Source: Planctomycetota bacterium (GTDB lineage: Bacteria > Planctomycetota > B129-G9 > JAJDCN01). Taken from it: 33,177 nt of DNA. Where the stretch lies: NCBI GenBank assembly GCA_029260815.1, contig JAJDCN010000269.1, positions 1 through 33,177 on the forward strand, in the 5' to 3' direction. Positions 2,305 to 27,538 of this stretch are shown in pieces. Position numbers and translations under genes: made by a program. The notes beneath the pieces were generated by a model. It saw nothing but the letters and a program-made list of their open reading frames with translations. It had not been told where the DNA came from and searched no databases. Every line of letters begins with the position of its first letter. The first letter of the stretch is position 1.

Positions 2305-2462
2305 CTCTTCATTATAAGGCTGGGCATCAACAAGCAGACCTAATACCGCTGGCGGACGAATCAGAGGACTTTCAACGTTCGGTTAGAGAATTTTACGATC
2401 CTTTCCCGTCTGGGAATCCTTACGAAAAGCAAGAAACTCGGTGTTAGCATAGAGGCGCCAAC

Positions 2463-5048: not shown

Positions 5049-5987
5049 TCAATGCGGAACCGAGAATCTGTGCCGCAGAATATGGCGGTTCGAAGCGGGG
5101 TCGAATTCCCGTTGAATGTCGTCTCTGTCATTTCTTCCCAGGCGCGTCCATGTCGTAATGCTTCGGGTATCTGTGGTCGTATCGAATCCGTTCGGAACCG
5201 AGATTCCGGCCAAGTTGCTGATAACGTAACGGTCGTGAAAGCCATCCCAAATAAATATGTTGGCAGTCAGTCCGGCAGCCCGTAGAGGGGCGGTCCATGA
5301 GTCGAACAAGGATCGCCAGCCAGCTTCGTCATGCTGATCTCGTTTGTCGCGCGAATCGAAATAGCAGACGCGATGAATCTCAATCAGTGGGGCAGGCGTT
5401 CGTCCTGCCATTTTCTTCAGCAAGGTAAGGACATCACTATATCGCCGTTGGGATGGGTTCAGATGTGGGTCTAGAAACATGAATGAATTAGCGCATTGAA
5501 AAATCAGATCCAAGTGCTGTGTGTATTCCTCGACGGTTTGAAGCAGACGAACCGACGAACCTCGACTCGACCACCACCCCGAACTTCCAAGACGATCAAT
5601 ACAACCCACCAAAGTTTCTTGGCGGTAGTTGGTCGCCACTGGTTGCGTGGCAATAATGCCCGACAGCGGCGTGGTCGCGTGGGATTGGAGCGCTTCATCG
5701 CACCACTCACTGTCAGTTGCCGGGTCAGCGGCCACAGCTGGCGGGATCAGTCGAAGTCGTTGTTGTTGGGCAAGTTTCTTAAGCAGCTCCTTGCCTCGTG
5801 AATGCCACGGGCGACCGTCGTTCGAAAACAGCGCTGACCATGCACCAGATCGGAGATTCCTCACCAACCCTTCGGTCAATAACACTTCCTTAAGCTGCTG
5901 AAGCCGTATGCCGCAAACCTCGTCACTGCTGTATGAAGTCGCGTCGAACACATCAGGAGTGAGGGCGTATTCCGCGAGAAGCGCCAT
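5049..5987 (-). CDS. Putative phospholipase D-like (HKD-superfamily) effector protein
   Basis: ATG at 5987 overlaps the TGA of the AAA gene (TGATG). Protein MALLAEYALTPDVFDA... contains FMFLDPHLNPSQRRY and FHDRYVISNLAGISVPNGFD, a degenerate PLD-like arrangement. The ORF track starts further upstream at 6032. Confidence 0.55.
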   Translation of the reverse strand: MALLAEYALTPDVFDATSYSSDEVCGIRLQQLKEVLLTEGLVRNLRSGAWSALFSNDGRPWHSRGKELLKKLAQQQRLRLIPPAVAADPATDSEWCDEALQSHATTPLSGIIATQPVATNYRQETLVGCIDRLGSSGWWSSRGSSVRLLQTVEEYTQHLDLIFQCANSFMFLDPHLNPSQRRYSDVLTLLKKMAGRTPAPLIEIHRVCYFDSRDKRDQHDEAGWRSLFDSWTAPLRAAGLTANIFIWDGFHDRYVISNLAGISVPNGFDTTTDTRSITTWTRLGRNDRDDIQREFDPASNRHILRHRFSVPH

Positions 5988-7654
5988 CAAAATACCTCCC
6001 TCAATCCTTCTTCGAAAAAGCCGCCGGGCCAAGCTTTTGCCAACTCACCGCGCTCATTAAGCGGCATTTCACGGATGATGCTGCGCTTCCCGTCTGGTTC
6101 CAGGTAGAGAACCAGAACATCGTCTTTCGTAACAGGAGGAATCCCGTCAGGCAGTTCACTGGAGAATGTCTGGCGCATCCGCTTCATTACGCGCAGCAAC
6201 AGATGTTCGCTGTGCGTTTCAAGCATGAAGCGGTTCTTTCTGTCACCGAGGGCAGATGTGACGAATACATCACCCAGTTCCGCTTGCAGTTTGGGATGGA
6301 GGTGAATCTCAGGCTGTTCGATGGTGATGATGCGCTCTTTTGCCGCGTAGGCGCTCACGAGGACGGGCAAAACCTGGCTGATTCCAATGCCAACATCACG
6401 GTGACTGACGACCGTGTTTGATCGCCTGTCCATCAAGACCAATTCGTTAAGCTTCTCAATGTCGGCGGTACGAATTGCGTCAACCATCTTCGTAACCTCT
6501 TTCTCGAAGTCCTTGATGGCCGCGTATGCACCCTCGGGCTCAGGCTTGTCATCGTAGTCCGGTTCAATCGTCAACCCATCCTCATTGAGACGTTCCATTG
6601 CCTCCCACATCGGAGTCTCGAGTTGGTCGATACCGATCAGGTCTCGAACCAGAAGTTCGTAGGGGGTTTGCAGACGCTCTGGAGAATTCAGCCACTCATT
6701 TACCAGCGTGCGGACGCGAGCGTCACGTCGCACCACGTCCCAGGCGTATCCGCCACCAGCGAACCAGTTCGGATCATGGTGCTGGGCAAATGCCAGGTGA
6801 CGCGGTGGATATGATCTGAGAGGACCGAGATACTGCAACTTGTCCAGTTCATCTCCCACCGACTGACTGATGCCCTGGAGGATTTCGTCAAGTTTCCGGG
6901 GAAGAAAAGACCGCACTGCTGCAGCCAAGTCCTCCTTTCGGCGACCCTTGCTGATCGTGAAGAAGAGATTCTGCTGACTCGAACCACCGAGGCCGTCGAA
7001 TTTCGCGAGTCCATCGGGTAGAAATTGCGTGCTTGTTGCAACCACCTCAGGAACCAGCGCCGCGATTGCTTCGTCGAGCCCTTCGAAATCCTCTGGGCGA
7101 AGGTTCTCCGTTGTGGACGACATCATGACCATGGCCCTGATGGCCTCTCGAAATACCGGGTGTTCATGGTCCAGGCGATCAAGTTGGAGCTTGCCGTCCT
7201 TGCGGCGGCTCATTCGTAGGAGGCTGCGGTTGTCGGCCTGCAATTCGTAGGTGTGAAGTTCGGGTCGGGCTTCCGGTTTAGGACGGTCTTGGTCGTCCAG
7301 CGAGATTCCGATGTTGATCACCATCGTGACCATGTCAGCTGGAGCGAATAGCTCAGCGAGTTTTCCGGTGAACTCGCTCGCTTTCAAATCAACAGCCCAC
7401 TCGACGCGGCGGGTTGCCTCTCGCCGATGGACGTATTGCCGGAATCCCCCCAAATCGACCGAATCGCCACCAACGTTCGTGCGATGAATATCCAGGTCGC
7501 CTGTCTCCAGCGCATGCCGGGCCAGTATCAAACTGTGGATAATGCTGGACTTGCCTGCACTGTTCGCGCCGTAGATCAGGGTTAACGGGCGCAGCGGAAT
7601 GCGTTGCGTGTCAGCAAATGCTTTGAAGTTTCCGAGGTGCAGTGCATTCAGCAT
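5987..7654 (-). CDS. AAA/ABC-type ATPase with DUF3696-like C-terminus
   Basis: Internal ATG at 7654 overlaps the upstream stop (ATGCTGA) and has an SD. MLNALHLGNFKAFADTQRIPLRPLTLIYGANSAGKSSIIHSL contains Walker A; VGIGISQVLPVLV and ITIEQPEIHLHPKLQ are signature/Walker B. The C-terminus FMLETHSEHLLLRVMKRMR...EEGLREVF resembles DUF3696 ATPases. Confidence 0.85.
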   Translation of the reverse strand: MLNALHLGNFKAFADTQRIPLRPLTLIYGANSAGKSSIIHSLILARHALETGDLDIHRTNVGGDSVDLGGFRQYVHRREATRRVEWAVDLKASEFTGKLAELFAPADMVTMVINIGISLDDQDRPKPEARPELHTYELQADNRSLLRMSRRKDGKLQLDRLDHEHPVFREAIRAMVMMSSTTENLRPEDFEGLDEAIAALVPEVVATSTQFLPDGLAKFDGLGGSSQQNLFFTISKGRRKEDLAAAVRSFLPRKLDEILQGISQSVGDELDKLQYLGPLRSYPPRHLAFAQHHDPNWFAGGGYAWDVVRRDARVRTLVNEWLNSPERLQTPYELLVRDLIGIDQLETPMWEAMERLNEDGLTIEPDYDDKPEPEGAYAAIKDFEKEVTKMVDAIRTADIEKLNELVLMDRRSNTVVSHRDVGIGISQVLPVLVSAYAAKERIITIEQPEIHLHPKLQAELGDVFVTSALGDRKNRFMLETHSEHLLLRVMKRMRQTFSSELPDGIPPVTKDDVLVLYLEPDGKRSIIREMPLNERGELAKAWPGGFFEEGLREVF

Positions 7655-8763
7655 TCGTGCCCCTCCTCTGAGATCTGGATCATGAACGTCAGCCATGAGT
7701 CGGTTCGGAGTAACAGTGCATTGAGCTGCCGATCGGATAAACCCGTTTCCAGTTGATGAACCCGATTGAGAAACTGGACGTATTCCACGAGCGCCTTGGT
7801 ATCGCTATCGAGGAAATCGCTCAGAGGTTCGTGGTTGATTTCTCGACATACATAGAGGATGCGTGCTCGCCTGGTGGGTTTGCCTTCATGGAGCAGTTCC
7901 GGATGCTTGCCGGAAAGCCAGGGAATCACATTCTCGTCCGAAGCCAGGCTCCGGAGCAGGTGGCCCCACAGTTCCCGCAAGGAGGCCAGAACGTGACGCC
8001 CGCGATCAATGCCACCGCCAGACAGGGCCTCTCTTGCGCCCTGATATGCCTTGGCCAGTGCGGGATTGACCCGGCTCAGCAAATCGAAGACGCCTGACGT
8101 TTCCTCACGCACATCGGCCAGCACAGATGCTTGTTCGTCATCAGCATCTTCCGCATCATCTGGCCATAGCTCCATGACCGCACGTCCAGTGACCAGCACC
8201 TCACGACTCGCACTCGGTAGCACGAAGGATGGCAACGCTGTCAACTTCGGGAGGCTTTCGACGGCAAGCGCGAGTCTGTCGAAACCGGATGTGAGATTTT
8301 CGAATCGCCCCTGAAGCTGCGCGACGATGTCGTCTTGAAATTTGAATGCGTTTCGAATCCTATCGAAGTCGATTCTGGTGCTGAACGTTTCGGCGATAGT
8401 CGCCATTTGCGATGCCGACGTGAGCGCCAATTTTGCGGATGCTTGAATATGGCTGAGGCGGTCCGCGCTGGCCTGGACATTGCGCATCCAACTGGCATGG
8501 ACCCGGGCCAGATTATCTATCCCTCGCGTGTCGATCTTGATCTTGTCGAAGGAGGTCAGCATCCGCTGGTTGGCCTGAGCGATTTCCTGCATGCGCGTGA
8601 CAACACCACTCACCTTCAATTGCTCGGCCAGGGCAAGGTGGCTGCGGCGGAACGGCTCCAGAGCCTTTTCCATTTGCTGAAACGAATCGAGATAGGCAGG
8701 CCGCAAGGCGCGGCTTGCCTGTTCGAGCTGTTTCTGCATTGCCAAGTAGGACGACGTACTCAT
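7648..8763 (-). CDS. Coiled-coil protein with a possible pPIWI-associated predicted nuclease domain at the C-terminus
   Basis: 371 aa with a long helical N-terminus. The C-terminal NPALAKAYQGAREALSGGGIDRGRHVLASLRELWGHLLRSLASDENV...PTRRARILYVCREIN resembles the family annotated as predicted pPIWI-associating nuclease. Assigned from memory of the pattern. Confidence 0.5.
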   Translation of the reverse strand: MSTSSYLAMQKQLEQASRALRPAYLDSFQQMEKALEPFRRSHLALAEQLKVSGVVTRMQEIAQANQRMLTSFDKIKIDTRGIDNLARVHASWMRNVQASADRLSHIQASAKLALTSASQMATIAETFSTRIDFDRIRNAFKFQDDIVAQLQGRFENLTSGFDRLALAVESLPKLTALPSFVLPSASREVLVTGRAVMELWPDDAEDADDEQASVLADVREETSGVFDLLSRVNPALAKAYQGAREALSGGGIDRGRHVLASLRELWGHLLRSLASDENVIPWLSGKHPELLHEGKPTRRARILYVCREINHEPLSDFLDSDTKALVEYVQFLNRVHQLETGLSDRQLNALLLRTDSWLTFMIQISEEGHEC

Positions 8764-9082: not shown

Positions 9083-10951
9083 CTACGAATCCCCGGCACT
9101 CATTGGCGTCAGGAGCCCACATTCCCTAAGCCCCTCCAGTGTCGATCCGAGTTTCTCGTCTGAAAACTCGGTCCGGTCCAGCTTGGCTTGCCACTCTGGG
9201 TGCTTATCGATTTCAGTTTTGATGCTGGCAATCGAAAGGTCGCCATCTTCAGCCAGTATCGCTTCGGCGGCATGAAGTACGGTCGCCCAGCGTTCAAGCG
9301 CCTGCCATCCCCAATCCTTCATCTTCTCCAGCATCGCATCGATTTGGTCTTTGGCGGCCCCGAGCGTTTTCTCCGCCTGCGCCACGCCTTTTGCGACGTC
9401 TGCGCCTGGACGGACAGGCTTGAGACCGCCTTGCGCGCGCCCCAGAACCATCCACTTTTGTTTGCGAGCGAGGCTCAGAAACTTGTGGATCGCATCGTCA
9501 AGCGGCCCGGCCGCACGCTGCGCGAACTTTTCGGTCAGCGAAAGTTCCGCCTTGCGCTGAACCAGATAGAACAGCTTAGCCAGCTTGACGCGTCCCAGCG
9601 GGCGGTCATCGGCGTGACAGCGGTCCGTGATGTATGCTGCCAGCGCTGCCTTGTTGTACATGTCATGGCCGCCATGGCGTTTGTCGGACTTCTTGCTGCC
9701 TCCTGATTTAGGAGGATTGGCCTCAAGTGTTTTTGTCTGCTGCTCCATTTCCTGGAGCAACTCTTCCATTTGGGCCTCTCGCCATTTTGCAGTGAGAGAA
9801 CCGTTGAATGCGCGATAAAGAAGCACATCGAACAAGCGGTTAATTTTCTCGCAGGACCTGAATCGGCTTTCCTCTATCCCGACAAGCTGCTCTGCCTGTT
9901 CGTTGAACGTGGCTAATGTGCTAGGGGCAGGAATCGGCGTATCGAATGAGCCCAACTGGTTCTTGTTGAGCTTGGGTATCCGAAGACGGCCTGAGTGGAC
10001 CTTCGCATAAGCCAAGAAAGCTGGAGATCGCAAGAGTGCGATGAGATACCAGCGGGATATTCGTTCGTCTTTAGGCTCAAGAGGATAAATATCCGCACTA
10101 CAGACACCCTCGAAACCCGGGAAGGAGACCTTGTTAAGGTAGGGTCGAATCTTCGAGTAAAGAATGTGATTTGGTGAAAACCAAAACTTGCTGCTCTTGA
10201 GGGCGCTGTCTCTCACCAGCTGAGGAGAGAGAATTCGCCCCGTGTCCTTCTCGATGTGCTCGCCGCCGACGTGGGGAAGGTTCTCGTATTCAGGACAATT
10301 CGGATCGACCAACCGTGTGCCGATCTCAACCAAGGAATCGAAGCGCTCTGTATCCCATCCGTTCGGATTTGTCGCCAGGTCACCGAACATTTTGCAGAAC
10401 AGTGCAGGCAGGATGCGCGCGGCTTTGGTGTCGGCCTCGGTGCGCTTCTTTCGAAGTGCTTCTGCTTGATCAAGAATTTCGACGATACGATCTTGTTCGG
10501 ACCTTGGCAGCCAGGGAATCTCCACGTCATAGACATTCTTGTCGGTGACTGCTGGGTAGTTCGCTCCACGCACATGCTGAAGAAGAGTATTGATAAATTG
10601 CTTCGTCCGGACGAAGAAGAAAAGAAGCCGTGGATGAAGAACCGACTCCATTGCCCTAAGCACGCAAAAACCCGTAGATGCTATTTCACCGCCAAGTTCA
10701 CTGGGCACCATCGCCACGGCATTGAGATTGGGGCGAACGGTAGAAACGACTACGTCGTTAGCTTCAACCACTTGTCGTGCCCGACTGGGAGCATCGCTGC
10801 CAAGAAGCTCTGCCGTTGAGGCAATGCACTTCTGTTCTCTATCGATACCGGAGATGTCTATGTATCGAAATGATGAATCCGGACTAAGGCGAGGATCCGT
10901 CTTTCGCGCCCGGGTACAGAGAGCGCCGATTCTAGCTGTGGGCCACGTCAT
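9083..10951 (-). CDS. hsdS: Type I restriction-modification specificity subunit with a C-terminal extension
   Basis: 622 aa with two target-recognition-like halves. The central repeat is typical (DIPWLPRSEQDRIVEILDQAEALRKKRTEADTKAARILPALFCKMFGD). It follows hsdM with a 4-nt overlap. The extra ~190 aa at the C-terminus are not part of standard HsdS. Confidence 0.9.
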   Translation of the reverse strand: MTWPTARIGALCTRARKTDPRLSPDSSFRYIDISGIDREQKCIASTAELLGSDAPSRARQVVEANDVVVSTVRPNLNAVAMVPSELGGEIASTGFCVLRAMESVLHPRLLFFFVRTKQFINTLLQHVRGANYPAVTDKNVYDVEIPWLPRSEQDRIVEILDQAEALRKKRTEADTKAARILPALFCKMFGDLATNPNGWDTERFDSLVEIGTRLVDPNCPEYENLPHVGGEHIEKDTGRILSPQLVRDSALKSSKFWFSPNHILYSKIRPYLNKVSFPGFEGVCSADIYPLEPKDERISRWYLIALLRSPAFLAYAKVHSGRLRIPKLNKNQLGSFDTPIPAPSTLATFNEQAEQLVGIEESRFRSCEKINRLFDVLLYRAFNGSLTAKWREAQMEELLQEMEQQTKTLEANPPKSGGSKKSDKRHGGHDMYNKAALAAYITDRCHADDRPLGRVKLAKLFYLVQRKAELSLTEKFAQRAAGPLDDAIHKFLSLARKQKWMVLGRAQGGLKPVRPGADVAKGVAQAEKTLGAAKDQIDAMLEKMKDWGWQALERWATVLHAAEAILAEDGDLSIASIKTEIDKHPEWQAKLDRTEFSDEKLGSTLEGLRECGLLTPMSAGDS

Positions 10952-12618
10952 TCTAATTCCTCAACTTTCAGCAAGATCGAATCAAGTCCTTCAACGATAG
11001 CTTGCTCGTCTTCCCGGAGTGAGTTGATCAGATCAATAGGATCGTCGTCCGGCGCAGAGGTCCCGATGGTTGGCTTGTAACGACTTGCAGCCAAGTTGTA
11101 ATCGTTCTCGCCAATTCGCCTGATGGTTGCCCACCAGCATCGCGGTAAATCACTGCCCGCTTGCAGCACCGAGTTCGCCTCAATGCCCGGCGCCTTCTTG
11201 AAGCTCGACTTCTTGTACTCGGCCCACTGCGCAAGCAAGTTCGGAAGGTCATTACGCTCTGGCGTTTCGGGGCGGCCGCCCCCCGAGACCTTATCGGGGT
11301 CATAACCGTCGATCCGGACGTCGTAAAACCAGACCTTTCCCTTCTGCTTAGACTTCTTGTCAGGCTTGGCGTCTTTGGGCGGTCGACGGAACACAAGTAC
11401 CCCGGTTTTGACACCCGCGTAGGGTTTGAAAACCCCGGCGGGCAGGGAGACGACGGCTAAAAGGTCGTAATCTTCGACGATCTTGCGTCGAAGCTCGACA
11501 TGGGCTGACGTGGACCCGAACAGAAGCCCCTCGGGCACGACCACCGCACATCGCCCGCCAGGAGCAAGTGCCTCCATCATCACCCCGAGAAATAGCAGTT
11601 CACTCTTCTTCGAGTTGGTCGGTAGGTCATTGCGGATGGATTCCTTTGGTAACTGCCCGGCGAATGGCGGATTCGAGAGGATGACCTTGTACTTGCGGGC
11701 AAGGTCGTCTTCGGTCAGACCGCCCATGTCGGAAAGCGTGTTGCCTCGTTTTACATTGGCCTTGCGAATGCCGTGAAGGACCAGGTTCATCATGGAGATG
11801 CGCATCATCTGGCGCGATACGTCGATTCCGAAGATCGACCGTTCAAGGATGCCCCAATCAGGAATCTTCTCGCCCGGTCCCTTGCGATAGGTCTGTAGTG
11901 TCGGGATTTCCTTGCGCGCCTCCTCAAGGCTCTGATTGCGCTTTTCTAACCACTCTTCGCCGTATATGGGAACTTCCTGTGGTTCGGTGGAGTACTTGGC
12001 CAGGATGTATTCCACCGCATCGATCAGGAATCCGCCCGTACCGCAAGCTGGGTCATAGACGGTGTCGCCGAGGTCAGGATCGACCATCTCGACCATCATG
12101 GTGCGGATCTGTCGCGGTGTGCGAAACTGGCCGTTCAAAGCCGACTGACCAAGATGGGTGAGCATGTACTCGAAGATATCGCCCTTGACGTCCGTTCCAA
12201 GTTTGGCGAATTCGATATTGTCGATTTCATCCACAACCTGTTTGAGAACATTGGGGTCCACGATTTCAAGCACTGCATCACGGAAGTATTCAGCGATCTG
12301 CGGCACTTCCTTCACCAGCGATGCCATGTATGGAAATACTTCATCCCGGATGAAGTCTCGCAGTTCCGTTCCGCTCTTGAACCGCCACTTGGTCCAGCGA
12401 TAGCGTTCGGATTGCTTGGGAAAAAGGCGTTTACCGTTCCCGTTGCTCGTCTTGCCCGTTAGCCTGGCTTGCAGCTCGCGGGTGGCCTCTTCCTCATCGA
12501 GCAACTTGAGATAGATCAGGTAGGAGATCTGCTCGATGTAGGTGACCGGGTTGGTGACACCGCCTGCCCAGAGGATGTCCGTAATCCGGTTCAGTTTCCT
12601 TCTCAAATCCTGGTTCAT
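10948..12618 (-). CDS. hsdM: Type I restriction-modification N6-adenine methyltransferase subunit
   Basis: 556 aa. The N-terminus (LRRKLNRITDILWAGGVTNPVTYIEQISYLIYLKLLDE), DPACGTGGFLIDA (SAM motif) and ILSNPPFAG (NPPF catalytic motif) are all present. Confidence 0.95.
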   Translation of the reverse strand: MNQDLRRKLNRITDILWAGGVTNPVTYIEQISYLIYLKLLDEEEATRELQARLTGKTSNGNGKRLFPKQSERYRWTKWRFKSGTELRDFIRDEVFPYMASLVKEVPQIAEYFRDAVLEIVDPNVLKQVVDEIDNIEFAKLGTDVKGDIFEYMLTHLGQSALNGQFRTPRQIRTMMVEMVDPDLGDTVYDPACGTGGFLIDAVEYILAKYSTEPQEVPIYGEEWLEKRNQSLEEARKEIPTLQTYRKGPGEKIPDWGILERSIFGIDVSRQMMRISMMNLVLHGIRKANVKRGNTLSDMGGLTEDDLARKYKVILSNPPFAGQLPKESIRNDLPTNSKKSELLFLGVMMEALAPGGRCAVVVPEGLLFGSTSAHVELRRKIVEDYDLLAVVSLPAGVFKPYAGVKTGVLVFRRPPKDAKPDKKSKQKGKVWFYDVRIDGYDPDKVSGGGRPETPERNDLPNLLAQWAEYKKSSFKKAPGIEANSVLQAGSDLPRCWWATIRRIGENDYNLAASRYKPTIGTSAPDDDPIDLINSLREDEQAIVEGLDSILLKVEELE

Positions 12619-12627
12619 TTCGATTCC

Positions 12628-14829
12628 TTATGCACTCTTCTTGAAGACCGATTCGTTCAGGTCCTCGACGATGTCTTTAAGCCCTTTTTCGCCGAACAGT
12701 TCGACGCCTAACTCGGCTGCGTTCAAGATCGACAGCGGCGGCTGGAACAGGTCTTCAAGTTCGATCCGGCCTCTAGCAATTCCACGATTCTTCAACAGCG
12801 AAAGATACTGCGCCTGCTGCGGGGTTATCGATTTCGCCACAAGCCATGCCTGGAAGTTCTCCGTCAGTTCTTCATCGCGACTCTTAATCTTGAGGTTTCC
12901 AAGAGCGGCCTTGATAAAGTCGATCAGGTTTCCACCGGGTTGCTGGTAGGCGCGCCGAAGGTTTTCCTCATTGAAATACATCTCGGGGCGGTTCAATCGG
13001 TCGGCGAGAGCCTGTTCTTCGTTCTCATCCAACAGTTCCCCGTCACGGACTTTCTTAATGACGGGATCGTCTTTTGCAGAAGATTGAACCGCCTTCTGCC
13101 AGTTGGTGATGTAATCCTTTTTGTCCACGCGCTCGCCATCCTTGCCAACCTCAACGTAGGTGACCGCATGAAGCCACTCATCCTGCAGTCCCAACTCGAC
13201 AAGATCGCGCCGCTCACCGGGAGGCTTGCGCGTGCCGCCAGGCGCGACACCGCTACCAGCACCCGTGAAGATGTCGGTGTCGCTGTCGTTGAAATACTCG
13301 TGGTTGCCGAAGAAGTCGTAGATGACGAATTTCTTCTTATCGATGTGTGGGGCGGTGCGGGTTCCACGACCGCGCATCTGCTGATAGAGAATCGGGCTTC
13401 GGACACGGCGGCACATGACGAGGTGGAGCACCTCGCGGCAGTCAAACCCGGTATCCAGCATTCCGACACTGACCGCGACCTGGGGATAGTCTTCGCGTTT
13501 GAATTTCCGGATGAGGTCGTCCGCGTTGGCCACATCACTCGTGATAACCTCCGCGTACTGCCCCTTCAGATCAGGATGGAGTTCATTCAAGTAGTTGGCG
13601 AGGCGGGCAGCATGGTGTTTGGTAATGGCAAAGACAATGGTCTTGCCTGGGCCAACCTTCTGACCTGGCGCAAGTTCCTGATAACTCTTCCATGCCAAGC
13701 GGTCGAATTCCTGGATCATCTTCTTGTTCGAGTCTTCATTCGTCCATTCGCGCTCGAATTTAGCAGGGTCGTAGGATTCGTCCTCGACTTCCGTGCCTTC
13801 CGCGAGCAGAACGGTGATCCCTGTGGCGAATTTGTAGGGCGCTAAATAGCCGCTCTTAAACGCCTCCTGAATTGGAAAAGCAAAATCAGGCTGGCCATCC
13901 TTACACTGATAGAATTGAAACGTGTTCCTTTCTATGTAGGCCGAAGGCGTTGCTGTTAATCCGATGTGCAAGGCGTCGAAATGCGTGAGTGCGGTCTGCC
14001 ATGAGCCGTAAATTGATCGATGCGATTCGTCAACAACGACGACATCAAAGTAGCCGCTGGTGAATTCCGTATAGCGGCTGACCATGGTTTGGAGCAGGCA
14101 AACTGTGATCTGCTGCTCCTGACGCGCCATGCCAGGGCGAAGCCAATAACTACCGTGTTGATTCAGCACATCCTGGAACGCCTCAAGAGCCTGCTTGGCC
14201 AGCTGCTCACGGTCAACAAGGAACAGCACCCGTTCAGCGCGCCCTGCCTGGATCAATCGCTTTATATACAGGCAGGTCAGGTCTGTTTTTCCCGTGCCCG
14301 TTGGAAGCTCGATAAGAAAACGCCGTTTGCCAAGTTCGATGGCGTGATCCAGCGCTTGCATGGCCTCCCGTTGATAGGAGCGAACCTGTCGGTCTTCTCC
14401 CTGGCGCAGGTAGTACTCAGGGATATCGACTGACGCAAGCGGCTTGCGCGTGGCTCGCATCTCGACGAGGCGCTCAAGGTCACGTCTGGAGAAAAACGAG
14501 TTGACGATTCGAGCATCATCGTTCGTGTAGTCCCAGAAGTAGATCAGTTCGCCATTCGTTAGAAAAATGAACGGTGCGCCGATCTTCTTCGCGTAGGGAA
14601 GAGCTTGCTGCTTCGCCGTATAAGGTTCGATGGCGGAGCGCTTCGCTTCGAGGATAGCTAACGGGCGACCGTTTCTTGCCATCAACATGTAATCAGCACG
14701 CCCGCCATCCGGAGTCGTCAGCTCAGTAGCCACCTGCGATTTGTCAGACGGTTCCCATCCGGCCTGTTTCAGCAGGTCGTCGATCACGATTCTTGCATCG
14801 GCTTCAGTCGAATGGTCCTTCACGGGCAT
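12628..14829 (-). CDS. hsdR: Type I restriction endonuclease/translocase subunit (EcoEI-like)
   Basis: 733 aa. Nuclease core GGRADYMLMARNGRPLAILEAKR; Walker A LPTGTGKTDL; DESHRSIYG (DEAH-like box); helicase motif VI QMRGRGTR. Confidence 0.95.
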   Translation of the reverse strand: MPVKDHSTEADARIVIDDLLKQAGWEPSDKSQVATELTTPDGGRADYMLMARNGRPLAILEAKRSAIEPYTAKQQALPYAKKIGAPFIFLTNGELIYFWDYTNDDARIVNSFFSRRDLERLVEMRATRKPLASVDIPEYYLRQGEDRQVRSYQREAMQALDHAIELGKRRFLIELPTGTGKTDLTCLYIKRLIQAGRAERVLFLVDREQLAKQALEAFQDVLNQHGSYWLRPGMARQEQQITVCLLQTMVSRYTEFTSGYFDVVVVDESHRSIYGSWQTALTHFDALHIGLTATPSAYIERNTFQFYQCKDGQPDFAFPIQEAFKSGYLAPYKFATGITVLLAEGTEVEDESYDPAKFEREWTNEDSNKKMIQEFDRLAWKSYQELAPGQKVGPGKTIVFAITKHHAARLANYLNELHPDLKGQYAEVITSDVANADDLIRKFKREDYPQVAVSVGMLDTGFDCREVLHLVMCRRVRSPILYQQMRGRGTRTAPHIDKKKFVIYDFFGNHEYFNDSDTDIFTGAGSGVAPGGTRKPPGERRDLVELGLQDEWLHAVTYVEVGKDGERVDKKDYITNWQKAVQSSAKDDPVIKKVRDGELLDENEEQALADRLNRPEMYFNEENLRRAYQQPGGNLIDFIKAALGNLKIKSRDEELTENFQAWLVAKSITPQQAQYLSLLKNRGIARGRIELEDLFQPPLSILNAAELGVELFGEKGLKDIVEDLNESVFKKSA

Positions 14830-14847
14830 GCTCTCCTGATTCTCAAA

Positions 14848-15132
14848 TCACTTGTACGCTGGAAAGTAATCCGCCAGGTACTTGCCTTTGAAGTACACGT
14901 CACAGACGAGCCTGCCGCGATCCACCTTGTGGGCGGTGCGGAGGTCAACCTGTTCACCCAGGATCAGGCGGGTGAGCTTTTCCTTAGCGGCCTGCCCACC
15001 GGCGGCGTGAAGTTCCGGGGCGTCAAACCCAGTAGGGCGAACCCGCGTTCCTGATTGCCCTTCCCACTTCCATCCACCGCTAACCTCAAACGTGTCGCCA
15101 TCGATGATCAAACTAACCGTAAACTGTGCCAT
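14848..15132 (-). CDS. Compact staphylococcal-nuclease-like (thermonuclease family) protein
   Basis: ATG at 15132 with SD AAAGGAG: MAQFTVSLIIDGDTFEVSGGWKWEGQSGTRVRPTGFDAPELHAAGGQAAKEKLTRLILGEQVDLRTAHKVDRGRLVCDVYFKGKYLADYFPAYK. It has the SNase IDGDT, R..GFDAPE and RGR catalytic positions. The ORF-track start at 15216 lies upstream of the predicted promoter and is unlikely. Confidence 0.8.
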   Translation of the reverse strand: MAQFTVSLIIDGDTFEVSGGWKWEGQSGTRVRPTGFDAPELHAAGGQAAKEKLTRLILGEQVDLRTAHKVDRGRLVCDVYFKGKYLADYFPAYK

Positions 15133-15180
15133 AATCGAATCTCCTTTCTTGCTTCGGACCAAGTTCTGGCAAGCAAGAAA

Positions 15181-15196
15181 CGCAAGGTGCGTGCCA
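15181..15196 (-). promoter_or_regulatory. Sigma54 (-24/-12) promoter
   Basis: The minus strand reads TTTGGCACGCACCTTGCG: TGGCACG-N4-TTGC, with exact GG-N10-GC spacing. It lies ~50 nt upstream of the SNase-like ATG and next to a gene encoding a sigma54 activator. Confidence 0.8.
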
Positions 15197-15209
15197 AAGA
15201 CGTCAGTCG

Positions 15210-15227
15210 CGCACAATTGTCTGTGCG
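15210..15227. promoter_or_regulatory. Candidate activator-binding inverted repeat
   Basis: CGCACA-ATTGTC-TGTGCG, perfect 6-bp arms, 13 bp upstream of the sigma54 promoter element. Confidence 0.35.
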
Positions 15228-15295
15228 GCCAGGCCTTATGGCATTTCGCTTCGTCATGGTCATTTTTCGCTCTTTCAACCCAGGCTTCAAAATCT

Positions 15296-16804
15296 TCAAC
15301 TTCGGTTGTAGTCGTCTGACTTTTTCATGAACTTGCTGACGGCTTGCGGGGTCATCCCCAGCAGACGCGCAGCCTCGCTTTGGTTGCCACCCGCGATTTC
15401 GACCGCGCGCAGGATCAACTGCTTTCGCGCGCTACTCAGAAATTCATCCAGCGCGAATCCAGGCTGCGGTTCGGGCAGGGTGTCGAGCGGATCGGCGTAG
15501 CTCACTGGTTCCGAGATGAGCAGATCGTCTGCCGCTAGGACGGAATCACGGCTCAAACGAACGGAACGCTCAATAACGTTTTCGAGATCGCGGACGTTGC
15601 CCGGCCACGCGTGGCTTTGAAGCCGCGCCAGCGCTTCTTGAGAAAGGCGTCGGGGTGAGCGCATCGTGGCATTGACTCGGTCGAGGACATGCAGGGCAAG
15701 TTTCGGAATGTCGGACCGGCGTTCACGAAGCGGTGGCAGAATCACTTCGCCCACGTTCAGACGGTAATAGAGATCCTCTCTGAACTTCTCCTTCTTGATT
15801 GATTGCGCAACATCGCGATTGGTCGCGGCGACGATGCGCACATTGACCTGATGAGGCTTTGGTTCACCAATTGATTCAACCATTCCGTCCTGAAGAACCC
15901 GGAGCAGTTTCGCCTGCATCGGCATGGGTAGCTCTGCAACTTCATCAAGGAAGAGCGTTCCTCCATCCGCCAGATCGAACTTCCCAGTCTGGTTTGAAGT
16001 CGCCCCAGTGAATGCGCCCTTCTTGTGGCCGAACAAAATGCTCTCGACCAAGTCCGGAGGAATGGCCGCACAGTTCAGAGCAACGAAGATGTCAGAAGGG
16101 CGACCGCTCAGGCGATGGACAAGTCGAGCAAGAAGTTCTTTTCCGGTGCCGGTTTCCCCGCGAATGAGTATCGGCGCGTCGGAGGACGCGAGGGTTCCCG
16201 CCATTTCTAAAGCCGCATTCATGGCTGGATGATCGCCAACGATTCCCAATTGGCGGATCGCCACATTCAAATCAGGAGGCGTTTCGGGTGCCGCTTCAAT
16301 CTCTGTTGTGGTTGCGCGGACGGAGGGGAATTCGTTTGCAGTGAGATCGACCTCGCCGACAAGCGGCCTGTCCTTCGTGACAAACCGGGGTGGTCGAACG
16401 TGCAGGAGTTTTGCAGGAATTTCGCCACTCGCGGCAAGGAGCACCCAGCATGCATGCATCTGTGGGGTTCCGGAGGCGACAGCGATAGAAAAGGATGCTT
16501 CTGGATGCTCTTCAGCGAGTTCTCGGATGTGCCTGCGGAGCGCACGGAAGATTGCAGCGTAGTCGGTGGGGTCTTCGAGGGAGACATTTCTGATCTCGAC
16601 CTCGACGCCGGAACCGCGCTTTTCGATCTCCGCTTTGGTTTCGGTTGTCCGGTCTTCTGTGTTGGGCGTGGCGAAGAGAACGACTCGCTCGAATGTACGT
16701 GCGGACACAAGCGACAGGATCGGACCAAGCTGCTCCTCTTGGCCGACCAGCCCTTTGGAATACGGGTCGTGGAACCCTGTGAATGTGAGTAGTACGTCCG
16801 TCAT
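15296..16804 (-). CDS. CARF-like sensor / sigma54-interacting AAA+ / Fis-HTH transcriptional activator (RtcR-related architecture)
   Basis: 502 aa. The N-terminus (MTDVLLTFTGFHDPYSKG...PILSLVSARTFERVVLFATPN...FSIAVASGTPQMHACWVLLAASGEIPAKLLHVRPPRF) looks CARF-like. Walker A is GETGTGKE, the sigma54-contact loop is an intact GAFTGA (KKGAFTGATS), and Walker B is GGTLFLDEVAEL. The C-terminus is a Fis HTH (GNQSEAARLLGMTPQAVSKFMKK). Confidence 0.85.
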   Translation of the reverse strand: MTDVLLTFTGFHDPYSKGLVGQEEQLGPILSLVSARTFERVVLFATPNTEDRTTETKAEIEKRGSGVEVEIRNVSLEDPTDYAAIFRALRRHIRELAEEHPEASFSIAVASGTPQMHACWVLLAASGEIPAKLLHVRPPRFVTKDRPLVGEVDLTANEFPSVRATTTEIEAAPETPPDLNVAIRQLGIVGDHPAMNAALEMAGTLASSDAPILIRGETGTGKELLARLVHRLSGRPSDIFVALNCAAIPPDLVESILFGHKKGAFTGATSNQTGKFDLADGGTLFLDEVAELPMPMQAKLLRVLQDGMVESIGEPKPHQVNVRIVAATNRDVAQSIKKEKFREDLYYRLNVGEVILPPLRERRSDIPKLALHVLDRVNATMRSPRRLSQEALARLQSHAWPGNVRDLENVIERSVRLSRDSVLAADDLLISEPVSYADPLDTLPEPQPGFALDEFLSSARKQLILRAVEIAGGNQSEAARLLGMTPQAVSKFMKKSDDYNRS

Positions 16805-17013
16805 TGATCCTGCCTTCGCGGTTCATCGCCAAGAAGGTGCTCGGGGTGACCCTTCAGCCATTCGTCGATGGAGTCCTTGTGGAATCGCCACCGCTTCCCG
16901 ACCTTCTGGCCGGGCATGCCGCCGTCCTGGACCAACTTGTAGAGCGTGGACTTGGAAATCTTCAGGTAGTCCGCCAACTCTTCGATGGTCATGACCTCGT
17001 CCGGTCCGGCCAT
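16801..17013 (-). CDS. Small excisionase/MerR-like HTH DNA-binding protein
   Basis: 70 aa: MTIEELADYLKISKSTLYKLVQDGGMPGQKVGKRWRFHKDSIDEWLKG, the classic Xis/helix_turn_helix_17 pattern. Overlaps the activator start by 4 nt. Confidence 0.85.
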   Translation of the reverse strand: MAGPDEVMTIEELADYLKISKSTLYKLVQDGGMPGQKVGKRWRFHKDSIDEWLKGHPEHLLGDEPRRQDQ

Positions 17014-17056
17014 GCGCCATACCTCCTGGTGGAATCGGGAATTTGCATAAGCGGGT

Positions 17057-17084
17057 ATTATCAGATATTATCGAATGTTGTCAA
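17057..17084 (-). promoter_or_regulatory. Sigma70-type promoter for the HTH-activator operon
   Basis: The minus strand has TTGACA (17084-17079), a 16-nt spacer and GATAAT (17062-17057), upstream of the HTH ATG at 17013. Confidence 0.5.
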
Positions 17085-17655: not shown

Positions 17656-19293
17656 TCAGACGTCCTGCACGTCTAGGAAGTAGCGTTCCCAAGAGGCGTG
17701 CTGGGGCGCAAACAGCGCGGTATGAGTCGCAATTGCCTCATCATCTGTTAGCCACGCAACATAATCAGCAGCAAGGCGCTGCGAAGTCAACTTTGAATCG
17801 TCACCCCACCGCTCTCTGTTGTAGTTGTCATACCTCTTTTGAGCTTTTCTCTCAATACTACGAGAGTTGTTGCCACGCCCCACATAAAACCAAAACAATT
17901 CACGTATAATGCGCGTTGCGGCCACCTGCCTTGCCGCCAAAGCTGGATGCACGTATTGCTCAATGATATCCATCCTCACCTTATCGATGATCCCTGTCCG
18001 TGTATACTCAGACTTGTGCTCCTCGAAATGAAAGCCTGTCTCACAGAACTGAAGTCGTCGGCTGTCAGAAGGCAGATTTCTCTGTGACGTCGGTGCGTTA
18101 GCAAGTTTGAATATCGCACGCCTGTGATCCTTCTCCTTCTCCCCCCCCTTCTCCCAAGCATCCCAATTGAGAATCCCAGCCTCGAATGCATCATTCAGGT
18201 CTGAGTTGACAAAGCAGATGTTGTCCGCAGTGCGCACTACAAACGCCTCTCGTGTTTCATCCTTTTTGCGCAATGTCATGGAGCCCCCGCGATAAACGTT
18301 TGGGGCCTTAAGCATGAAACTCTCGTATGCCCCGCGCCACGAGTGCGACAGAATCCCATATGCCGTTTGTCGTGTTACATCAGCGTTCTGCTTTTTGGGA
18401 TTGCACAAGAGTATACGTAGACCGTGTACGTAGTGTGCAAACAGTTCACCCATGCCTTTCTGAACCCAAAACTCGGTCTCCAAGTCATTCGGATATGGTG
18501 GCAGACCTTCCCACTCAAGAGGCTCATGAAACGCACACTTGCCATTGTCTACCAATAGTATATTCTTGCATCCAAGCTCGTCGAACAGCGGTTGCCCCAG
18601 TAGCCTCTGAACGTCACTCTCCATTGGCAGCTCAGTTTCATGACGGCGAGGATCTTTCATGGCAAGCCATTGGACTAAGTGCCATATGGCAGCGTCCTTG
18701 TGTTTATGCTGTGCCTTTCTCTTCTTGGCCTTCTCTTTCCCACCAGTAAGCCCGCCAATCTCTGGACCACCCGGGAGATTGATACAAAGACGGATGAAGA
18801 GCTCATATAAGCACAGGTTAAGAGCTGCTTCACCTGTATGTCCAAAAGGCGTATGGCCGATATCGTGCCCATATGCTATTGCTTCAGTTAAATCAACGTT
18901 GAGACCATTCTTGTGCGCAATACTCCGACTCAATTGGACGACATCAAGAGTATGTATAAGGCGGTTTCTATAGACCGTTCTCCCTGGACCTGTGAACACT
19001 TGAGTCTTCCCTGCAAGGCGGACGAAATTGGGGTTGAACAGAATCTGATCCCGGTCAATATCAAAATGTGTTCGGCCACCGGGCCACCCATCCTCGTCGG
19101 CATTCGACTCGATGAGCTTCGTGTTCTTTACGCGCGTTGCGCTCGTATACCTATAACCCAATGCCCTTCTTGTCTCGCCTTCAGGGCTAAAGTGGCAAGC
19201 ACGCGCGTCCATGTTCTTGTCGGCGATCTCCGACGCTTGTTTCAAAGCTCCTCGAGCTTTCTCTGTACTCTCAGTCACCGAACACCCTCCCAT
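17656..19293 (-). CDS. dGTPase-like HD-domain triphosphohydrolase
   Basis: 545 aa. RDQILFNPNFVRLAGKTQVF...RNRLIHTLDVVQLSRSIA...EAIAYGHDIGHTPFGHTGE is the dGTPase N-terminal signature with an intact H...HD motif. Confidence 0.85.
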   Translation of the reverse strand: MGGCSVTESTEKARGALKQASEIADKNMDARACHFSPEGETRRALGYRYTSATRVKNTKLIESNADEDGWPGGRTHFDIDRDQILFNPNFVRLAGKTQVFTGPGRTVYRNRLIHTLDVVQLSRSIAHKNGLNVDLTEAIAYGHDIGHTPFGHTGEAALNLCLYELFIRLCINLPGGPEIGGLTGGKEKAKKRKAQHKHKDAAIWHLVQWLAMKDPRRHETELPMESDVQRLLGQPLFDELGCKNILLVDNGKCAFHEPLEWEGLPPYPNDLETEFWVQKGMGELFAHYVHGLRILLCNPKKQNADVTRQTAYGILSHSWRGAYESFMLKAPNVYRGGSMTLRKKDETREAFVVRTADNICFVNSDLNDAFEAGILNWDAWEKGGEKEKDHRRAIFKLANAPTSQRNLPSDSRRLQFCETGFHFEEHKSEYTRTGIIDKVRMDIIEQYVHPALAARQVAATRIIRELFWFYVGRGNNSRSIERKAQKRYDNYNRERWGDDSKLTSQRLAADYVAWLTDDEAIATHTALFAPQHASWERYFLDVQDV

Positions 19294-19982
19294 ATGCCCT
19301 TCACCGACAGTAACAACTCCCGCTGAGGAGTCTCCATCGTTGCGCCCGGACGCATAGTCCCTCCGAATGCGCGCTCAAGAACGTTAACACTTTGTTGAAT
19401 GTTCTCGCGACACGGATACCTTCTCCAATCCCACATGCTACACTTGTCTTCCGCCACACTTAGTACCTGTCGCAGAAACTGTCGCGGTATCACCGTGTTG
19501 ATCGGATATAGGTCATATGTAGTGTCTTCGCCTTCCGAACCAACAAGAAGGTATCCGAACTCATCGTGCTCGGCCAAGTTCAGCAAATGGCAGCGCGCCG
19601 CAATGGGAAAAGGGAGCAATGACCGAAAGCGCTCTGGGGACTTGCAAGGAGCGACGTGCACGTGCGTGTGCTGGATACAACACCCCCCCGTTATATGACG
19701 GCTCTTACCTGGTCCGTGTTCAAAGACAATGCTCGGGCCGTATGCGCAGTTGATCGCATCACGCGTCAGTTGGACTACGTGGTTAAGCTCTTCCAGCAAC
19801 TCGCGGTCGAGAGATCTTGCACAGGAGCAGTGATGCTTAGAGACAACCATGAGCCAGCCTTGTATGAACTGGCCGAGCGTCGGCATCACCACAAAGTTTC
19901 TCGTCTCATATAAAGGGGTGTTCTCAATCCGCTGCGATCCAGCGTGGGTTAGGGCCTGACAAAGGGGACATGGGTCAATCAT
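19275..19982 (-). CDS. HIT-like nucleotide hydrolase/transferase
   Basis: 235 aa. N-terminal CPLC, then the HIT catalytic motif QHTHVHVAP. Overlaps both neighbouring genes. Confidence 0.75.
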   Translation of the reverse strand: MIDPCPLCQALTHAGSQRIENTPLYETRNFVVMPTLGQFIQGWLMVVSKHHCSCARSLDRELLEELNHVVQLTRDAINCAYGPSIVFEHGPGKSRHITGGCCIQHTHVHVAPCKSPERFRSLLPFPIAARCHLLNLAEHDEFGYLLVGSEGEDTTYDLYPINTVIPRQFLRQVLSVAEDKCSMWDWRRYPCRENIQQSVNVLERAFGGTMRPGATMETPQRELLLSVKGIWEGVR

Positions 19983-20790
19983 GCTTTTTTGATCTTCCTT
20001 CTAATGCGGCTTCTATCAATGCAGATAAGCGTGATGCCCTTGCTTGAAACTCTATAGGTGCTGCTACTGAGTCGCTCATCTTGAGCGGTGCAACATATGT
20101 ACTGAAAGGATCTTCTCCGGTGTACGCATATCGATGTAGAAAAGTGGAATCAAGACTTCGAACAGAGCCATGAGAGCCCAGCATTCGGAGTTCGAGCAAG
20201 AACTCTCTACCAGCACCAAGCAAATGCACGTCAATACGTGGATACCGGCGCTTGAGCTCTGCAGCGATCTCTATTCTGAATTCGGGCCTTCCGTTGCTGC
20301 ATCTGGCGGAGAACAGGCGCGGTATACCCACAGTGCAACTACCTACTTGTTGGATCAGCTTGTGTGCGTTCTCGGCCCACTCTACGTACGATGTTCCATG
20401 CGGAACGATCATTAGCTGTGGCCTTCTGTCGTTCGGCAGTCGGGACCAGGCTCGTATGAAATCTCTCGTTCTCAACAGACTTTTGCTTGGGTCATTGGGA
20501 CAATCAGAGCAAACGACTTCCTGTACACCAAGGTCAATAGCAAGATCAAGAAGCTCGATGTCGGTGAGTTCCGCGCTTTCTGTTCCGATCGAGACTTCTA
20601 AGGCTCCGGAATCCAGTGTAGTAAATACAGATTGTGACCTCTTAGCACAATAGTCGGCATATTGATGTGAGCGAAGCGCCAGCGGGGCCAGAAACATCTC
20701 CATGTCGCTATGAGGCGACAACACGTCTACCGTCGCAAGGCTTCCAACATGCGCAAACTTTATGTTTCTGGCAGTAGCAACCCTAGCCAT
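19975..20790 (-). CDS. tRNA-guanine-transglycosylase-like TIM-barrel protein (DpdA/TGT superfamily-like)
   Basis: 271 aa. TLDSGALEVSIG..., LAIDLGVQEVVCSDCPNDPSKSLLRTRDFI, LMIVPHGTSYVEWAENAHKLI, TVGIPRLF, HLLGAGREFLLELRMLGSHGSVRSLDST reads as successive barrel strands of TGT-like enzymes. Confidence 0.55.
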   Translation of the reverse strand: MARVATARNIKFAHVGSLATVDVLSPHSDMEMFLAPLALRSHQYADYCAKRSQSVFTTLDSGALEVSIGTESAELTDIELLDLAIDLGVQEVVCSDCPNDPSKSLLRTRDFIRAWSRLPNDRRPQLMIVPHGTSYVEWAENAHKLIQQVGSCTVGIPRLFSARCSNGRPEFRIEIAAELKRRYPRIDVHLLGAGREFLLELRMLGSHGSVRSLDSTFLHRYAYTGEDPFSTYVAPLKMSDSVAAPIEFQARASRLSALIEAALEGRSKKHD

Positions 20791-21889
20791 GGAGAAAGTC
20801 CTCTATGCTCTTTGACATCATATCTTCCACATGTCTCTTTACGTCCCCCCCCCAAAACGAACCAGGACTAAACTGGTAACCACCAAGTAAGGAGGATGCT
20901 TTCTTGGTAACGCACTGTCCGTCGACGATTATCTTGCCGTGTCCGCTCACCACTTCACCGAGAACCACGAGTTCGCTGCCAATTGTTTCTAGTGCGGCTT
21001 TAGCAGCTACTACAGCATCTCTATCAGCCGAACATAAGAGATGGCATGTTCCCCAACTCAATGCCCAAGCACGTGCGTCAGAATTGCAAGCAGCTGCTAC
21101 CTCATGAATCTCATGCGCAACAATGTCGTCTTCGAGAGAGATAACAGCATCAACGTCTGATAATGCTACTAAGTCCAGCGCGCAGGCGAGAAGACCATCG
21201 GAGGTGTCCATGCAGAATCTGGGCGGCGCTTTCTCCAACAGAATCTGGCCTTGTTCGACCTTTGCTGTGGGTGTAAGCGCCATGCTACGGACTCTGGATA
21301 GTAGGTCTTCTGAAAGAGTAGAGCATTTGCCCTTTCGTTCCTGGGTTGCTATCCCTGCCCAAAATCCGCCAAAGTCAGCCCTGTCTACAACAAAAAGCAT
21401 GTCACCCGGGCAAGCAGCTCCTCTGAGCAACGCTTGCTTTGTTCTTGTGGCACCAACAGCACATGAGACGGCGTGTGACCTCTCTCTTGCCTCTCTGATA
21501 TTGCCGCCAAGCAATGCCGTCCCGTGAGCAGAAGAACATGCAACCACCCCATTGAAAAACGAATCGAAAGTCTGGATCGCGGTCTGTCTTGGAAAATCAA
21601 CTGTTACAACTACCCCTAAAGGAGAAGCTCCCATTGACGCAAGGTCTGATAGAGATTTGACAACGCAGAGCCAGCCTGCATGATAGTAATCGCCCATGCC
21701 AAGTCGCTGAACTAGATTGGGAATGGGGCAAGGGTCAGTCGTGATCCATGTTGTCTCCCCGCGAGTGGATGTTTGCAGGCAAGCTGAATCATCAAGCATG
21801 AGCTCGGGGCCACCGTGCTCGGCCACAATGTCTCTTATCCTGTAAATCAGCTCGCGCTCGCCAAAATCCTCAAGAATTTGGGCTGTCAC
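20783..21889 (-). CDS. ThiL/PurM (AIR synthase)-like ATP-dependent enzyme
   Basis: 368 aa with a GTG start after GAGGGGG. LMLDDSACLQ...TTDPCPI...HAGWLCVVKSLSDLASMGASPLGVVVTVDFP and MDTSDGLLACALDL are ThiL/PurM-family motifs. Confidence 0.75.
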   Translation of the reverse strand: MTAQILEDFGERELIYRIRDIVAEHGGPELMLDDSACLQTSTRGETTWITTDPCPIPNLVQRLGMGDYYHAGWLCVVKSLSDLASMGASPLGVVVTVDFPRQTAIQTFDSFFNGVVACSSAHGTALLGGNIREARERSHAVSCAVGATRTKQALLRGAACPGDMLFVVDRADFGGFWAGIATQERKGKCSTLSEDLLSRVRSMALTPTAKVEQGQILLEKAPPRFCMDTSDGLLACALDLVALSDVDAVISLEDDIVAHEIHEVAAACNSDARAWALSWGTCHLLCSADRDAVVAAKAALETIGSELVVLGEVVSGHGKIIVDGQCVTKKASSLLGGYQFSPGSFWGGDVKRHVEDMMSKSIEDFLHG

Positions 21890-27536: not shown

Positions 27537-27538
27537 GG

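Follow-up and report, generated by a model that had tools for sequence, protein, structure and literature searches.

A predicted sigma-54 switch with a CARF-domain activator in front of a Type I restriction operon of Planctomycetota

Introduction

Restriction-modification is usually thought to be always on. The DNA described in this work, a stretch of 33,177 nucleotides from a Planctomycetota bacterium (assembly GCA_029260815.1, contig JAJDCN010000269.1; "the window" denotes this stretch at its full length), raises the question whether a whole Type I operon may be switched on by a signal. A sequence-only reading of the window had placed a near-consensus sigma-54 promoter in front of an SNase-like gene and hsdRMS, remarking that Type I operons are not normally sigma-54-dependent. 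The remark is fair in general terms, but sigma-54 activation had been already predicted in the vicinity of restriction-modification genes. In the sections dealing with these proteins, PMC4012209 (2014) describes RtcR-like CARF-AAA-HTH proteins devoid of a link to Rtc, which often reside beside restriction-modification genes and are likely sigma-54 activators of downstream genes, and PMC11090510 (2024) reports RtcR-like CARF activators together with Type I systems in superoperons, with predicted activation by sigma-54.

We propose that the window hosts a restriction-defence operon which is inducible and is controlled by a CARF-domain sigma-54 enhancer-binding protein, a reading to which, on the basis of genes and sites recognized in the DNA, we assign a probability of about 0.88. 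The operon is probably turned on by a sensed signal, and not always on. The promoter foreseen by the sequence-only reading holds; what that reading had missed is that the activator carries a CARF sensor domain, that a tandem enhancer is present and that the module is widely conserved.

Results

The promoter resides on the minus strand at 15182..15196, where it had been sought, though the interval formerly given (15181-15196) is one base too long. The -24/-12 element reads TGGCACG-CACC-TTGC (TGGCACGCACCTTGC, equal to TTTGGCACGCACCTTGCGTTTC), within a minus-strand context running TTTGGCACGCACCTTGCGTTTCTTGC...AGAAAGGAGATTCGATTATG. From 15196 to 15182 the GG-N10-GC spacing is exact, and all of the 11 specified positions of TGGCACG-N4-TTGC are matched (11/11), this being the sole match with fewer than two mismatches in the whole window. 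Since the assembly (3.53 Mb) holds four exact copies of the pattern, versus one of a reversed control pattern, the string by itself is neither rare genome-wide nor convincing. What makes the call convincing is the setting, between an activator gene and the Shine-Dalgarno and ATG of a 94-aa SNase-fold gene found 50 nt downstream, as had been estimated, along with the conservation described below. Transcription is predicted to start at about 15170, 12 nt past the -12 C at 15182. The sole terminator-like hairpin between the activator and the SNase gene has a 5-pair stem and overlaps the promoter; no strong terminator is present there. A simple, crude consensus scan of the minus strand from the activator start to hsdM (12000-17000) found no sigma-70-like sites. 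The gene rpoN, named earlier as a check on the promoter, is present in the host genome (PF04552, E 1.9e-61), which also features 13 matches to the AAA+ activator domain, two of them weak.

The gene directly upstream, correctly spotted before as a sigma-54 activator, encodes a 502-aa regulator (15296..16804, minus strand) in which PADLOC, Pfam and alignment delineate a CARF domain, an AAA+ sigma-54 activator domain and a Fis-type HTH, in the order of the RtcR_PspF2 type. PADLOC matches residues 3-496 to RtcR_PspF2--CARF_AAA_HTH (8.6e-139), and Pfam hits are Sigma54_activat (1.1e-67), RtcR (2e-11), Cas_Csm6_CARF (2.4e-8) and HTH_8 (2.1e-6); the N-terminal CARF domain is akin to RtcR and Csm6. 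The sigma-54-contacting motif GAFTGA is found in the protein, F-T-G-A being invariant in the alignment, and Walker motifs are present. The combination by which sigma-54 enhancer-binding proteins are recognized, AAA+ with GAFTGA and a DNA-binding HTH, is thus found in the activator. The NCBIfam RtcR equivalog NF038308 is not reached, the score of 342.5 bits being about half the cutoff of 650. No adjacent divergent rtcB/rtcA genes occur at the window locus, where the neighbours are SNase and hsdRMS genes, and the host RtcB is encoded on another contig.

A 70-aa HTH_17 protein, excisionase/MerR-like (16801..17013, minus strand; Pfam HTH_17 1.4e-18), is encoded upstream of the activator, and the stop of its gene overlaps the activator start (ATGA). 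HTH_17 genes 33-41% identical lie directly upstream of the activator in loci L003, L004, L005 and L007, and also in L090. The pair is headed by a predicted sigma-70-like promoter and leader (17013..17084, minus strand), in which TTGACA-N16-GATAAT, at 17084-17057, scored 11/12 in the consensus scan.

One scan of GTDB representative genomes yielded about 28 activator relatives spanning the CARF domain, 45-72% identical, from genomes labelled as Planctomycetota, Desulfobacterales, Nitrospirae, Cloacimonadota, Gammaproteobacteria, Acidobacteria, Verrucomicrobia and others. The loci with sequence past the activator are 28, the window included, and are mostly metagenome bins, the organism labels of which may err. 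A GG-N10-GC site scoring at least 9/11 was found within 160 nt past the activator stop in 18 of the 28 loci, as opposed to none on the reverse strand and a mean of 0.375 (maximum 3) in dinucleotide shuffles; L004, L005 and L027 are close to one another, as are L006 and L008, and the independent count is nearer 15 of 25. The other 10 loci score below 9/11 in the first 160 nt, and a convincing full module was not found by the 28-locus scan in L021, L022, L024, L025 and L026. The four exact copies in the assembly show that the pattern can arise by chance, and might suggest that the site is a sigma-54-like string with no function; but position, orientation, enhancer and spacing are conserved in many phyla, and the composite element is specific to this type of locus. 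Such conservation makes a chance string very unlikely indeed. The predicted sigma-54 promoter in front of the SNase-fold/hsdRMS operon is, on sequence grounds, genuine.

Two 18-bp palindromes of the TTTCAACCnnGGTTGAAA type precede the promoter on the minus strand. The distal copy (CTACAACCGAAGTTGAAG, 15294..15311) matches TTTCAACCnnGGTTGAAA at 12 of 16 positions, and overlaps the last codons and the stop of the activator gene; the proximal copy (TTGAAGCCTGGGTTGAAA, 15273..15290) matches at 13 of 16, and its centre falls 86 bp before the -24 GG. The copies are exactly 21 bp apart, as in most orthologues, a distance corresponding to two helical turns. Palindromes of the TTTCAACC/GGTTGAAA type recur around the activator stop codon in the downstream regions of orthologous loci. 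The mean pair score is 25.95 of 32 at 21-bp spacing versus 17.5-21.7 for all other spacings between 18 and 35, and the summed best palindrome score is 368 versus 248-272 in first-order shuffles, scores which are descriptive since the consensus was drawn from the same loci, the fixed spacing being a more independent support. In several orthologues the distal copy encodes the final F-N-R-S residues of the activator. Because of the overlap, the activator gene holds part of its own probable binding site.

The distance to the promoter is fixed as well. In the window the palindromes lie 86 and 107 bp upstream of the -24 GG, and these distances are conserved; in every locus with a good site, 83-87 bp separate the -24 GG from the centre of the proximal copy, regardless of whether the pair is located before or after the stop. 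Applied to L011, L020 and L023, the 86-bp rule picks out degenerate sigma-54 boxes; L009 retains the 86 bp as well, though its whole module is found 0.4 kb downstream, behind an inserted nucleotidyltransferase gene (L009 3906-4242). In L016, where a HicAB-like insertion precedes the module, the rule does not hold: the palindromes keep the 21-bp spacing, but the distance to the -24 element is about 176 bp. The low-scoring L024 shows 86 bp too, yet its palindromes and box are noise. As a separate observation, the L016 insertion is a HicB/HicA-like pair (L016 2943-3442) set between activator and cis-module, and insertions in L016 and L009 displace the module by 0.4-0.6 kb. The composite enhancer-promoter pattern was found at two places in 393 genomes of the same phylum, the window locus and the equivalent place in genome G250, both directly downstream of a CARF-AAA+-Fis activator, and the reversed control was found at none. 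The predicted upstream activating sequences fit the location of about 100-150 bp upstream of the start that is taken as typical of sigma-54 enhancer-binding proteins. In many phyla the predicted enhancer geometry persists, including loci with a degenerate sigma-54 box or a displaced module. Another sequence upstream of the promoter, CGCACA-GACAAT-TGTGCG, was considered as an enhancer and rejected, being not conserved in other loci. A strict-consensus IHF site between enhancer and promoter was found only in L007, L010 and L018, and IHF bending is therefore not claimed for the window.

The first gene past the promoter has a Shine-Dalgarno sequence (AGAAAGGAGATT) and an ATG start at 15132 (15130..15149, minus strand). 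The start had been moved from 15216 to 15132 by the sequence-only reading, and the correction is borne out by 13 homologues, which begin at the equivalent Met and in nearly all cases are preceded by an AGGAG-type Shine-Dalgarno. The product (14848..15132, minus strand) is a 94-aa mini-SNase, assigned on the basis of AlphaFold, Foldseek and weak Pfam SNase matches. The AlphaFold model has pLDDT 90.1 and pTM 0.80, and staphylococcal nuclease accounts for every one of the best 50 Foldseek matches (best E 6.5e-6, TMq 0.69, probability 1.00). With E values up to 1 allowed, Pfam SNase is matched by 12 of 14 family members (best E 9.4e-4); the window protein has E 0.016 and 16.1 bits, below the curated cutoff of 21. 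Sequence searches of PDB with the protein or its profile gave nothing meaningful, and only the fold comparison was informative. D13, R32, E40 and R74 are invariant in the family, and D37 is replaced by N in 2 of 14 members; by motif spacing, D13, R32, D37, E40 and R74 would correspond to the catalytic D21, R35, D40, E43 and R87 of staphylococcal nuclease. That the modelled mini-SNase may be an active nuclease is plausible. A strict pairing of mini-SNase and activator was considered and rejected, given that the same-phylum members L112 and L113 have no activator nearby in the sequence examined, L113 being near a contig end. These copies (L112 7327-7596; L113 7469-7831) lack a neighbouring CARF activator, and the L113 copy adjoins an XRE-type regulator.

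Behind the mini-SNase come hsdR (12628..14829, 733 aa; Pfam ResIII 6.9e-33, EcoEI_R_C 1.5e-25, HSDR_N 5.7e-10; PADLOC REase_I 1.1e-87), hsdM (10948..12618, 556 aa; Pfam N6_Mtase 8.4e-51, HsdM_N 1.5e-18; PADLOC MTase_I 2e-137) and hsdS (9083..10951, 622 aa; PADLOC Specificity_I 4e-92 over residues 2-386), all on the minus strand. By Pfam and PADLOC, and as far as genes alone can tell, the Type I restriction-modification set is complete. Spacing is tight from SNase to hsdS, with a gap of 18 nt before hsdR and one of about 10 nt between hsdR and hsdM, and with hsdM overlapping hsdS. A gap of about 320 nt, which could hold another promoter, separates hsdS from a 371-aa pPIWI-associating nuclease-like protein (pP_pnuc_1; 7648..8763, minus strand; Pfam 3.1e-20), found in the same place in L004. 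Next are an OLD-like AAA_15/AAA_21 ATPase with a DUF3696-like C-terminus (5987..7696, minus strand; Pfam AAA_15 1.9e-21) and its 327-aa partner (5049..6032, minus strand), which matches no family and is the last gene of the proposed operon. Most homologues of the ATPase start at codon 12-15 of the annotated window gene; those residing behind hsdS in L002, L004, L006, L008, L010 and L015 are 46-73% identical, and genes 55-60% identical to the partner are found directly behind the AAA gene in L006, L008 and L010. The order SNase-hsdR-hsdM-hsdS, often followed by the ATPase and its partner, is common to many loci, and in the closest ones hsdR and hsdM are mostly 65-81% identical. The mini-SNase is the constant first gene in many loci, the genes behind it being variable, and the promoter might accordingly serve the SNase-fold gene only, the hsd genes forming a separate unit; but just 18 nt, hosting neither a terminator nor a promoter, separate SNase from hsdR, and we regard this arrangement as improbable. 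A single operon led by the mini-SNase is the reading adopted here.

In L030 the same cis-module is followed by distant Type I genes, and in L014 and L018 by CoCoNuT-like VWA-PP2C-kinase-helicase operons. A few further observations are recorded here. The CoCoNuT-like cluster of L014 includes a Card1-like CARF nuclease (L014 6364-8121), whose gene belongs to the operon that follows this promoter and SNase gene. The C-terminus of the window HsdS is about 200 residues longer (from about residue 420), homologues from orthologous loci matching only from 1 to about 410, and could be a fused domain. Upstream of the defence genes (17656-21889) a dGTPase-like HD protein, a HIT-like protein, a 271-aa protein assigned to no family and an AIR-synthase-like protein are encoded in one run, possibly a nucleotide-related system; four consecutive paralogues of 799-857 aa with trypsin-like protease domains occupy 22619-32649, and the far end of the island (1462-3950) encodes, on its plus strand, a HAD-family phosphatase and an RNase_H_2 (DUF2779-like) protein.

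Discussion

In the model proposed, a sigma-70-like promoter of their own would keep the HTH_17 protein and the activator at a basal level, and the Fis-type HTH of the activator would bind the tandem palindromes (15273-15290 and 15294-15311), as the conserved geometry suggests. Binding of a stress or infection signal by the CARF domain would lead to assembly of the AAA+ ring, which would remodel the RNA polymerase-sigma-54 complex waiting at 15182-15196. Transcription would proceed from about 15170 through mini-SNase, hsdR, hsdM and hsdS, and probably continue through the pP_pnuc nuclease, the AAA ATPase and the 327-aa gene.

The nature of the signal may be approached through the relatives of the activator. 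Among families whose ligand is known, RtcR is the nearest; its activation by 5' tRNA halves with a terminal 2',3'-cyclic phosphate (PMC7790460) puts broken RNA first among the candidates. The presence of RtcB in the host, and the fact that no Csm1_B domain (Cas10) was found in the host assembly, 89% complete, fit this view, but are no proof of it. Alternatively, the CARF domain may sense a cyclic oligonucleotide made by another defence system, either type III CRISPR or CBASS-like, rather than RNA ends. The CARF part of the activator also matches Csm6/Csx1-type CARF profiles, and a Card1-like CARF nuclease resides in the L014 operon; yet the missing Csm1_B domain and the kinship to RtcR point the other way, and we consider a cyclic oligonucleotide somewhat unlikely.

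Inducibility poses a problem. As hsdR precedes hsdM in one operon, a switch-on from zero would expose unmethylated host DNA: were hsdM and hsdS fully off before induction, HsdR would meet an unmethylated chromosome, a dangerous condition. Basal read-through transcription is the simplest answer to this self-restriction puzzle. A different hypothesis accepts the sigma-54 promoter, but as a mere booster of an operon otherwise expressed, by read-through from the sigma-70-like promoter at 17084 or from internal promoters; the methyltransferase would then never be missing, and induction would alter just the level of restriction. The activator gene is close and co-directional, no strong terminator precedes the SNase gene, the sigma-70 scan was crude, and internal or read-through promoters could supply basal hsdM and hsdS. 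By contrast, that scan revealed no sigma-70-like site on the minus strand from 12000 to 17000, and the short hsdR-hsdM gap and the hsdM/hsdS overlap leave no obvious separate hsdM promoter. A mere booster is quite conceivable, though short of an even chance; a signal-dependent switch of the operon is the reading we prefer.

Among known systems, the RtcR/rtcBA pair of E. coli and Salmonella is alike in having a CARF-AAA+-HTH enhancer-binding protein, an adjacent TGGCACG-N4-TTGC promoter (the E. coli rtcBA site is TGGCACGACGGTTGC) and an upstream activating sequence used by RtcR (PMC9650030). It differs in that the targets are rtcBA and not restriction genes, in that rtc genes are divergent and those of the window co-directional, and in the RtcR score of the window activator, far below the equivalog cutoff. 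The tandem TTTCAACC/GGTTGAAA enhancer was sought in the E. coli rtcBA region, and is absent. Deletion of the CARF domain renders RtcR constitutively active in vitro (PMC9650030). PspF, in the phage shock response, is a sigma-54 AAA+ activator answering stresses including phage, but lacks CARF and controls membrane-stress proteins rather than restriction, and the window activator falls below the PspF-family cutoff. Type III CRISPR systems with CARF effectors share a CARF sensor in a defence setting; unlike them, the window CARF would act on transcription via sigma-54, in a host assembly in which the Csm1_B domain of Cas10 was not detected.

The closest parallel is with the RtcR_PspF regulators covered by the pertinent sections of PMC4012209 and PMC11090510, which share with the window the domain order (PADLOC RtcR_PspF2) and the location next to Type I genes; CoCoNuT-like operons are also found behind the window-type cis-module, in L014 and L018. 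The sections of these open-access papers on such regulators describe neither the promoter, nor the enhancer sequence, nor an SNase-fold lead gene. In the light of this literature, the cis-module and the SNase-fold lead gene appear new, and the window locus is an example, well supported, of a class predicted before; its control element and lead gene are newly described. Plasmid relatives of the activator, 34-36% identical, lead into hsdRMS in Pseudomonas luteola, Vitreoscilla, Azotobacter and Vibrio coralliilyticus, and other plasmid relatives, in Rhodoferax and Polaromonas, into VWA-PP2C-kinase operons; in each, a sigma-54-like site matching 8-10 of 11 positions lies close to the stop of the activator, with no enhancer of the window type.

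How RtcR-type signalling ends is a question raised in PMC7790460. The mini-SNase could be an off-switch, or a plain effector nuclease. As a speculation that we deem unlikely when taken as a whole, activator, tandem-enhancer/sigma-54 element and mini-SNase would form a portable signal-gated cassette placed before different weapons (Type I systems of more than one subfamily, CoCoNuT-like VWA-kinase operons, AAA-nuclease pairs), and the mini-SNase, made first, would degrade the CARF ligand or the RNA from which it derives, ending the response as a ring nuclease does.

If the conserved sigma-54 switch before Type I genes is gated by a sensor, as predicted here, damage or infection signals may induce restriction operons in their entirety. 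Induced restriction also makes one ask how the cell escapes self-restriction when the operon is switched on. Given the exact sequences of promoter and enhancer, a simple reporter would allow a direct test of what CARF regulators sense and control.
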